Assembly: GCF_014217565.1 (NCBI RefSeq)
Contig: NZ_CP043661.1
Location: 7,192,001-7,256,000, forward strand
DNA length: 64,000 nt
DNA from: Kribbella qitaiheensis
GTDB lineage: Bacteria > Actinomycetota > Actinomycetes > Propionibacteriales > Kribbellaceae
Direction: 5' to 3'
In this document: positions 2,436-58,952 of the stretch, piece after piece
Position numbering within the stretch: the stretch's first letter is position 1
Layout of the letters: every line of letters starts with the position of its first letter
Position numbers and translations under genes: made by a program
Notes under the pieces: model-generated
The model's database searches: none
What the model was told of the DNA's origin: nothing
The model's input: only the letters and a program-made list of their open reading frames with translations

Positions 2436-2543
2436 CTAGTGCCCCGAGTCCGAAGTTCTTTGACGTGGACCGGCGCCCAAGCACCCCGATGCACGCACCT
2501 GAACACCGCCCACTGTCAAACAACTTCGAACTCGGGGCACTAG
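2436..2543. mobile_element. MITE-like element, 108 bp, CTAG-bounded
   Basis: The 29-base ends at 2436-2464 and 2515-2543 are inverted copies with only two mismatches, both beginning CTAGTGCCCCGAGT. The 50-base interior has no coding potential. CTAG at both borders could be a target-site duplication or part of the ends. The right border supplies the TAG stop codon of the RCC1 gene. A second, larger element with the same first eight bases lies at 57951. The parent transposase is not known from this window. Confidence 0.7.
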
Positions 2544-56458: not shown

Positions 56459-56535
56459 GCCCGTTGCCAATCGGAGATTACCCGAGCGCCGGACCAACTG
56501 GAGGCGCCTTCGGTGATTTCGACAGACTGATGGTA

Positions 56536-56565
56536 TTGACAAGATTTGTACGGCGTGCAAATAAT
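56536..56565 (+). promoter_or_regulatory. Promoter and operator of the TetR-VOC operon
   Basis: -35 TTGACA (56536-56541), 18-base spacer, -10 AATAAT (56560-56565). Within the spacer lies TTTGTAC-GGC-GTGCAAA (56545-56561), an inverted repeat with one mismatch and a likely self-operator. The -10 ends seven bases before the ATG at 56573. Confidence 0.7.
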
Positions 56566-56572
56566 ACTGACT

Positions 56573-57169
56573 ATGTTAAAGGGGGAAGGGAACTGGCGCG
56601 AGGCGCGGCGGGCGAGTGCCCGGGCGGCCGTGTTGGTGGCGGCCTGGGAACTGGTGCGGGCGGACGGACCGGCCGCGCTGTCGATGCGGGAACTGGCTCG
56701 CAGGGCCGGCATCACCACGCCGACCGTCTATGCGTACTTCGAGTCGAAGAACGCGATCTTCGACGCGATGTTCGCGGAGGCCGCGCAGAGTTTCGTCGAG
56801 CTGAAAGCCGCGGTGCCGACCACCGACGATCCGCGGCAGGACCTGCTCGCCGAAGCTCGGGCATTTGTGGAGTTCTGCGTGTCCGACGCGCCTCGGTACC
56901 AGCTTCTGTTCCAGCGTTCCGTGCCGGGCTTCACGCCCTCGCCGGAGTCCTATGAGCTCGCAGTGAGTGCCCTGGAGGTCACTCGCGGGCTCCTCGCACG
57001 CAATGGCGTGCACGATCCGCGACACCTCGACATCTGGACCGCCGTCACGGTCGGCCTGGTCGACCAGCAGGTCTCCAACGACCCTGATGGCGACCGGTGG
57101 AGCCGGCTCGTCGACGACGTGACCCAGATGTTCCTCGATCGCTACGCGACCGGGGGAGTCAGTTCCTGA
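56573..57169 (+). CDS. TetR-family regulator
   Basis: 198 residues from ATG at 56573. Helix-turn-helix in the N-terminal 60 residues (AAWELVRADGPAAL then SMRELARRAGITTPTVYAYF), with a TetR_C-like WHG-type ligand domain after it. No ribosome site is present and the promoter places the transcript start at the ATG (leaderless). It is followed 12 bases later by the VOC gene and probably controls this two-gene operon through the operator in its own promoter. Confidence 0.88.
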   Translation: MLKGEGNWREARRASARAAVLVAAWELVRADGPAALSMRELARRAGITTPTVYAYFESKNAIFDAMFAEAAQSFVELKAAVPTTDDPRQDLLAEARAFVEFCVSDAPRYQLLFQRSVPGFTPSPESYELAVSALEVTRGLLARNGVHDPRHLDIWTAVTVGLVDQQVSNDPDGDRWSRLVDDVTQMFLDRYATGGVSS

Positions 57170-57181
57170 AGGGGGCACCTC

Positions 57182-57616
57182 ATGTCCGGCGTTACCCAGG
57201 CAACACTCCACCATCTCGCCCTGACCGTGACCGATCTGGATGCCAGCGTCCGGTGGTACGGCGAGGTCTTCGACGTCCACCCGATCATGGATGTCCCACA
57301 CCAGGGCGGCGTCGGCCGGATCCTCGCCAACGCCGACTATCGCCTGATGATCGCGTTGCACCGCCACGAGACCAACGACGGCGGGCTCTGCGCCGAGACG
57401 ACGACCGGGCTCGACCATGCGGGCTTCACCGTCGGCAGTCGCGCCGATCTCGAGCAGTGGCAGGACCATCTGGAGGCTCACGGTGTGGTGCGCGCTGACC
57501 ACGCCGACAAGCCGCTGACCCAGTCGCCGATCGCGGACGAGCCGTACGCCTCGGTCCTGGTCTTCCGCGACCAGGACAACATCCAGCTCGAACTCTTCTC
57601 GCCCGTCCAGCACTAG
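57182..57616 (+). CDS. VOC-superfamily (glyoxalase/dioxygenase-like) protein
   Basis: 144 residues; ATG at 57182 with AAGGGGG upstream. Two beta-alpha-beta-beta-beta modules: LHHLALTVTDLDASVRWYGE opens the first with the metal-ligand His, GLDHAGFTV the second, and a late Glu in NIQLELFS. Metal ligands of type His-His-Glu are therefore available. It could be a lyase, a dioxygenase or a resistance protein that binds an antibiotic. Co-transcription with TetR suggests an inducible detoxification role (inference). Confidence 0.88.
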   Translation: MSGVTQATLHHLALTVTDLDASVRWYGEVFDVHPIMDVPHQGGVGRILANADYRLMIALHRHETNDGGLCAETTTGLDHAGFTVGSRADLEQWQDHLEAHGVVRADHADKPLTQSPIADEPYASVLVFRDQDNIQLELFSPVQH

Positions 57617-57891
57617 CGCCGTCCTGCCTCTTGCCTGGTAGGGACTGCTTGGTAGATGTCGACAATCGGCAGATATCGAGGCAGTGCATACCGGGCCGGA
57701 GAGTTCCGATGCCGAAGGTCAGGACCTCGGCGGGGGCGAAGGCGAACACGTCGGCGGGGGCTGAGGGGGAACCGGCGTTGAGTCGCTGGTTGCGGACGCG
57801 TGCAAGGTGGCGCTTCCGTGCTGACTGAAGGAGCGGTTGCCTCTGGCAACGGATACTTCTATCCGTCGACAAATGCTGACAGGCATACCGC

Positions 57892-57954
57892 GCGTTGATG
57901 TCGGACCAGGAGATCTTCGGCCCGGTCGCGCCGCTCACCCCCTCCTCAGGCTAG
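57892..57954 (+). pseudogene. Possible aldehyde dehydrogenase fragment
   Basis: Reads ALMSDQEIFGPVAPL before a TAG supplied by the CTAG border of the element at 57951. EIFGPVAP is the C-terminal signature of aldehyde dehydrogenases (usually 'EE.FGPV.P'). Only about 20 codons remain, with no start, so it is a degraded remnant if real. The preceding 57617-57890 has no gene, only two tiny hairpins at 57836-57864. Confidence 0.3.
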
Positions 57955-58368
57955 TGCCTCGTCAAGCAACGTTGGGGGTGGTACTCGCCGCCGCTGGGTT
58001 CTGCTCGCGTCTTGGCGATCGCGCGGATCGCCGGTGCGGTGGGTGGCGGGACGGTGATGGGTGTAGCTGGGCCGGGCGGGTGGCGGGACCTGGGACAGGA
58101 TGTCGGGGGCTCGGACAAGCTATTTGGTGTCCCAGGTCGCGGCGGTGTGTCCCAGCCCCCGGCAGCACGTCCCGGGTTCGGGCGGGGCTGCGACTATGTG
58201 CACCAGATCTGTGATCCCGCGGCCGGAATCTGCTCAGCCGGTGCACAAAGTCGCGATCCGGATGGCTGGCCGCGGGTGAGGAGTCGGTGCTGAGGCGGCT
58301 GGGCGGTGCATTGGTCCAGCCGGGCTGACCACCGATTCCGACCTCAACGTTTCTTGTCGCGGCACTAG
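57951..58368. mobile_element. CTAG-bounded inverted-repeat element, 418 bp
   Basis: The 27-base ends (57951-57977 and 58342-58368) are inverted copies with four mismatches, both starting CTAGTGCC and containing AACGTTG. The interior has no convincing protein but is highly structured, for example GACCTGGGACA (58087-58097) with its exact inverse at 58138-58148. The right border CTAG gives the TAG stop of the GNAT gene; the left border gives the TAG that ends the aldehyde dehydrogenase fragment. It is non-autonomous (MITE-like) or a long-decayed IS. It shares its first eight bases and CTAG borders with the element at 2436. Confidence 0.65.
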
Positions 58369-58952
58369 CTCTTGTGGTCGGTAGCGATGAGGCCGTGGAG
58401 GTGCCAGTCGTGCCAGCCGTCGGCGTGTTTGATCGCTTGGCGGAGGGTGCCTTCGAGGTGGTAGTTGGTGCGTTCCGCGACGCGGCAGGAGGCTGTGTTG
58501 GCTGTAGAGTGGTTGATGTTCAGCCGGTGGAACCCAATCTGCCCGAAAGCCCAAGCGGACAAGGCCTTTACGGATCTTGCGGCGAGGGCTTGGCCTCGGG
58601 CTGCTGGGGTCATCCAGTACGACAAACCGGCGGATGCCTCGGTCAGCGAAATCGCGCGTAGTCCGATCTGGCCGAGTGGCTGATCGTTGCCGTCGACGAC
58701 TGCCCAGCTCGCTGACGTTTCCTCATCCCATCGCGCCGCCCATTGCCCGGTCCACTCGACCGCCTCATCGAGAGAGTCGAGCCGCCGCACATGCCACCGC
58801 TGGATATCAGGACAACCAAACGCGGACTGCACCATAGGCGCGTCGCTCTCCCGCCAGGGCCGCAGTACGAGCCCGTCCTCACTCGCGATCCGGGGCTGTT
58901 CGAGCTCCCGTAACGTCCCACGCCGCAAGACCGGCTCAACAAGCAGAGGCAT
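58365..58952 (-). CDS. GNAT-family N-acetyltransferase (RimJ/RimL-like)
   Basis: 195 residues; ATG at 58952. GNAT fold of the RimJ/RimL type: LVLRPWRESDAPMV near residue 28, PLGQIGLRAISLTEASAGLSYW, the acetyl-CoA loop TPAARGQALAARSVKALSAW, and HRLNINHSTANTASCRVAER, the typical late motif. It acetylates an amino group of a protein N-terminus, antibiotic or small metabolite; the target is unknown. Its TAG stop falls in the CTAG end of the neighbouring inverted-repeat element. Confidence 0.9.
   Translation of the reverse strand: MPLLVEPVLRRGTLRELEQPRIASEDGLVLRPWRESDAPMVQSAFGCPDIQRWHVRRLDSLDEAVEWTGQWAARWDEETSASWAVVDGNDQPLGQIGLRAISLTEASAGLSYWMTPAARGQALAARSVKALSAWAFGQIGFHRLNINHSTANTASCRVAERTNYHLEGTLRQAIKHADGWHDWHLHGLIATDHKS

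Follow-up and report, generated by a model that had tools for sequence, protein, structure and literature searches.

The element and its neighbours

Within the window, a 64,000-nucleotide stretch of the Kribbella qitaiheensis genome, a 418-bp element (E418) lies between two CTAG sites at the end of an acetyltransferase gene. Its coordinates and length, first given in an earlier note on this DNA, are confirmed. The features of the locus, together with a second and shorter element of the window, are the following:

57951..58368, plus strand: E418, MITE-like element, CTAG to CTAG, 418 bp
57951..57977, plus strand: left terminal inverted repeat of E418 including CTAG, 23/27 identical to the right end
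58342..58368, minus strand: right terminal inverted repeat of E418 including CTAG
about 58074..58138, plus strand: palindromic interior module 1, GGACA...TGTCC, also solitary elsewhere in the genome
about 58190..58254, plus strand: palindromic interior module 2, GCGACTATGTGCACC...GGTGCACAAAGTCGC, also dispersed in the genome
58365..58952, minus strand: GNAT acetyltransferase gene, TAG stop within the right CTAG of E418
57886..57954, plus strand: short frame with an aldehyde-dehydrogenase-like motif (by eye), closing at the left TAG of E418
56463..57950: about 1.5 kb adjoining E418, missing between the same neighbours in the relatives G014 and G037
2436..2543, plus strand: A-type MITE, 108 bp, CTAG to CTAG, of a subfamily other than that of E418

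The first bases of E418 are CTAGTGCC. If TA is the duplicated unit, the C and the TA of the left CTAG come from the target and the G is base 1 of the element. For all 463 pairs of window CTAGs separated by more than 30 bp, the inverted match of the ends was scored across the 23 bases lying inwards of each CTAG. The highest scores belong to 2436-2543 (21/23) and E418 (19/23), followed by a third-ranked pair with 13/23. Chance pairing of CTAGs was considered for both elements and ruled out, as both are outliers among the 463 pairs. Both elements begin with the same eight bases, as the earlier note had pointed out, and have a similar end style, yet they belong to different subfamilies.

The same note had placed E418 on stop codons at both sides. 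On the right, the CTAG indeed supplies the TAG of the GNAT gene. On the left, the short frame contains EIFGPVAPL, which we take to be an aldehyde-dehydrogenase-like motif, and closes in frame with the TAG at 57952-57954. A Pfam search with a 22-aa stretch of the frame gave no match, the aldehyde-dehydrogenase-like name being based on the motif, and the gene caller found no gene there. As far as can be seen, this frame is not a gene end. Similarly, the right end of the 2436 element forms the TAG of a gene, while the gene to its left has its own TAG 2 bp before the left CTAG. Each of the two window elements therefore has one stop-codon end, not two, and the two-sided placement fails for both.

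The aldehyde-dehydrogenase-like fragment and its in-frame TAG are located within the 1.5-kb segment at 56463-57950, which also carries a glyoxalase-family gene and, by eye, a frame of TetR type. As G014 and G037 lack this segment, a further rearrangement took place on the left side of E418, and the left flank is not the ancestral neighbour of the element.

Genomic copies, interior and a matching insertion sequence

E418 has matches elsewhere in the 8.16-Mb genome at 74-94% identity, in pieces. Longer copies are found at 4356675, 5731301, 6489109, 1135405, 2030491 and 6215929, besides fragments. The four E418-type copies with both ends recognisable range from 418 to 632 bp, and their differences in length are largely due to tandem repeats: a 9-bp unit (CCGCGCGAT) is repeated perfectly 13 times in the copy at 5731301 (positions 1928-2045 of the extracted stretch L013), and the copy at 2030491 has an array of about 10 units of 20 bp. 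In the 37 other genomes of the genus, with up to 17 first-pass candidates scored per genome, no E418 match was obtained at E 1e-10. Short B-type MITEs of similar kind, unlike E418, are present in other species of the genus (G007, G003, G027, G028 and G030).

The interior of E418 consists of hairpins and variable tandem repeats with no recognised coding. E418 lacks a transposase frame of its own, as would be present in an autonomous IS630-family insertion sequence, and a search for transposase remains in five E418 copies gave nothing convincing (best E 0.53). No Rfam family was found within 57800-58500 at E 1. Folded as RNA, the interior is more stable than all of 100 shuffles (z -5.2). In places, the solitary copies of module 1 lie beside apparent gene ends (read by eye).

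A pattern was built from both ends of E418, starting at the G of the element and without requiring CTA. In public genomes it has 31 matches, distributed over 30 stretches that include species of Kribbella, Amycolatopsis and Nocardia. In Kribbella catacumbae, two such ends enclose a CTAG-bounded element of 1190 bp that encodes a 364-aa protein. This protein is an IS630-family transposase according to NCBIfam NF033545 (199.9 bits, cut-off 100) and also matches Pfam DDE_3. The left end of E418 is identical to the left end of this insertion sequence over 26/26 bases, and the right ends agree at 83% over 36 bases. The crossed comparisons give 96% over 25 and 84% over 38 bases, so the sides are not assignable by score.

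The search for a transposase with matching ends proposed in the earlier note thus leads to an IS630-type element in K. catacumbae, but the relative in the genome of E418 is broken and no intact copy was found there. This relative has the same left end at genome positions 69806-69843, adjoining DDE_3 pieces; its transposase pieces (68-92% identity) lie in two parts, at about 64.8-65.3 kb and about 69.1-69.8 kb. A second IS630-type transposase is present in the genome, with a 371-aa open frame at each of two places; in three copies, the right end likewise reads CACTAG. Nested and broken insertion sequences cluster in the region from 61300 to 70000 of the genome, among them two IS630 types and an IstB-like gene (by eye).

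The IS701 and IS5 families, which the note had named along with IS630, have CTAG-like targets. The duplication length can be read in more than one way here, which leaves room for an origin of E418 from either type; as the insertion sequence with the ends of E418 encodes an IS630-family transposase above the curated cut-off, this origin is given almost no credence. E418 might alternatively be a non-mobile repeat of the intergenic hairpin or REP-like terminator type, bounded by CTAG and spread by recombination, not by transposition. The strong folding of its hairpins would fit such a repeat, as would the occurrence of its two interior modules on their own elsewhere. The match of its ends to a transposase-encoding insertion sequence, the CTAG on both sides and the empty CTAG in relatives (see below) make this highly improbable. 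E418 is short and non-coding, has terminal inverted repeats and several genomic copies and shares its ends with an autonomous insertion sequence, all of which are properties of MITEs. It is one of several IS630-type MITE-like families that the genome carries.

A further CTAG-bounded element of 543 bp is located at genome positions 6144838-6145380 (L251 1539-2081), with ends GTGCCCTG(C/T)TTCTGAAGTTCG. Near-identical copies (97-99%) occur at several places in the genome, and in its ends it is similar to the second IS630-type insertion sequence. Its inner palindromic part is found solitary at many more places.

CTAG sites and stop codons

Elements with paired ends were searched over 1,124,215 bases of the genome, made up of the surroundings of matches and an even sample. 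TA was required at the ends and the outer C and G were not, although one seed pattern did contain GC before TA. The search yielded 18 clean elements of several subfamilies, one of which (8153941-8154543) combines ends of two types, alike at 17/22 positions, and could represent a pair of elements. Degenerate copies with mutated ends and D-type copies with a changed end are outside the 18. The left TA is preceded by C in 18/18 clean copies and the right TA is followed by G in 17/18. Similarly, CTA precedes the end in 27/31 pattern matches in public genomes, and two of the four exceptions look by eye like chance matches in metagenome bins. The evidence for CTAG targeting, as claimed in the earlier note, is strong. 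TA is present on both sides of the elements, and in the clean copies and the empty sites of relatives TA and CTAG are not distinguishable as the duplicated unit.

Corresponding sites in relatives were compared at four places. In G014, the GNAT gene ends in AGC-TAG and thus holds an empty CTAG, while G037 has the GNAT gene without CTAG. Among the 29 GNAT relatives with loci, four end in TAG, two of these in CTAG (counted by eye). Beside the copy at 4017551, three of six loci are comparable: G030 and G007 carry CTAG, and G027 carries TTAG. Beside the copy at 2627841, CTAG is present in 5/5 relatives, at least 4/5 of which have a TGA stop for the left gene ahead of it (by eye). Where the 2436 element lies, the corresponding place in G014 and G037 holds TGA and lacks CTAG, and no match was found in G005 and G002. 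Relatives hence end at TGA instead of TAG at two of the four compared sites.

The window contains 31 CTAG sites against 78 expected from dinucleotide shuffles. A simple codon-based gene caller, trained on 864 kb (the window and 40 further stretches of 20 kb each), returned 815 genes, 191 of them with TAG, and called 82% of the sequence coding, probably an under-call. The 432 CTAG sites in these 864 kb divide into 77 TAG stops (3 shared by two genes), 188 intergenic sites, 166 genic sites and 1 site at a gene edge. CTAG is thus both scarce and frequent at TAG stops, in agreement with the earlier note. After removal of 10 sites inside elements, the background comprises 422 CTAGs (73 stops, 183 intergenic, 166 genic).

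The TAG of a called gene lies exactly at one end in 9/18 clean copies. Another 9/18 have no stop end, and stop codons at both ends occur in 0/18. A degenerate copy near 3863450-3863620 has TAG at both ends by eye; it fails the end-pairing rule and is not counted. Copies at stops (9/18) exceed the share among all CTAGs (73/422; one-sided Fisher P 0.002, this and the following P values coming from several tests and being uncorrected). Against non-genic CTAGs (73/256), the one-sided Fisher P is 0.053, and it is 0.077 with looser and 0.094 with stricter gene calls, the latter giving 8/18 copies at stops. Since insertion breaks a gene, the flanks of each copy were also joined to restore the empty site, which assigns 9 of the 18 copies to stops, 8 to intergenic sites and 1 to a gene (6437476-6438020). 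On this basis, copies are depleted within genes (1/18 vs 166/422, one-sided P 0.0019). With the genic copy set aside, 9/17 copies are at stops compared with 73/256 non-genic CTAGs (one-sided P 0.036). In a separate count, 8/17 elements lie in convergent gaps compared with 57/229 non-genic CTAGs (one-sided P 0.048). In other genomes, TAG stops make up 5/26 CTAG ends with enough flank, several of which are from one species and non-independent, against 80/530 strand-ends of non-genic CTAGs.

The stop-codon association is real, and its excess over non-genic CTAGs is marginal. The earlier note had gone further and suggested a stop-seeking strategy. Under such active seeking, insertion would be guided to gene ends by the transposase or a partner, through recognition of the ends themselves or of terminating ribosomes or transcripts. 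The excess over all CTAGs, the joined-flank value for non-genic stops and the count in convergent gaps speak for it; against non-genic CTAGs, however, P ranges from 0.036 to 0.094 and stays at 0.053 or above under the other way of counting. Half of the clean copies have no stop end and none has two, the proportion in other genomes is 5/26 against 80/530, and relatives have TGA at half of the compared sites. Active seeking is accordingly regarded as very unlikely. The milder claim of the note, in which insertions are guided to gene ends by the rarity of CTAG, is in keeping with a passive effect; the counts are compatible both with and without a small additional preference. The association is mostly accounted for by the target word together with the paucity of genic copies. 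Few copies lie in genes and non-coding CTAG is concentrated at TAG stops, hence the many surviving copies next to stops.

Proposed origin of E418 and comparison with known systems

Taken together, E418 is very probably a non-autonomous MITE-like element with IS630-family (Tc1/mariner-type) ends that was moved in trans into CTAG and reached stop codons passively. In this view, E418 would be excised by an IS630-type transposase provided in trans and inserted at the TA within a CTAG, with duplication of the TA. As the element begins with G and ends with C, C-TA-G would become C-TA-[G...C]-TA-G, and CTAG would be restored on both sides. A TAG stop read from either side would therefore remain unchanged after insertion, a direct consequence of the sequence. 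The scheme presumes mobilisation in trans, duplication of TA and not of CTAG, and selection against genic copies; for E418, movement in trans is suggested by analogy with the proposal for the RUP repeats of pneumococcus.

A more far-reaching version would be a built-in safe harbour in IS630-type elements of GC-rich actinobacteria, in which the CTAG target and the terminal G that rewrites TAG exactly are joined by a genuine additional preference for gene ends and convergent gaps. The hairpin cargo might then serve as a two-way transcription terminator, and insertion might help the host. This extension is considered unlikely; an extra preference for stops or convergent gaps, if it held true in a larger curated set, would be of real interest. 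With passive placement, E418 offers a countable case in which a short palindromic word, scarce in coding DNA, puts a transposon at harmless spots without a dedicated targeting factor. It also illustrates that annotated 3' ends of genes in such genomes can be ends of mobile elements.

The kind of element is already known, and E418 is a further example. In the open-licence literature, nothing was found that links IS630 or CTAG targeting to stop codons, or that combines Kribbella, insertion sequences and IS630. The preference of IS630 of Shigella sonnei for the TA in CTAG was published in 1991 and is evident from the titles of Tenzen et al. 1990 and Tenzen and Ohtsubo 1991, cited in PMC2170065. 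IS630 resembles E418 in this preference, and its transposase family is that of the insertion sequence with the ends of E418; the likeness is in target preference and transposase family, and IS630 is autonomous whereas E418 has no transposase. According to PMC2170065, IS630-family transposases insert into TA and duplicate it, as does ISY100 of Synechocystis, a member of this family. Unlike E418, which is known here from sequence alone, ISY100 is autonomous and works in vitro (PMC2170065).

The 1190-bp insertion sequence of K. catacumbae has the same ends as E418 and is likewise bounded by CTAG, but it encodes its transposase and has only the ends in common with E418. RUP differs in its length (107 bp) and host, and the passages of PMC2229807 consulted mention no CTAG rule for it. 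Like E418, RUP is described there as a short non-coding repeat with ends resembling those of an IS630-type insertion sequence, with TA as its target and with proposed movement in trans (PMC2229807).
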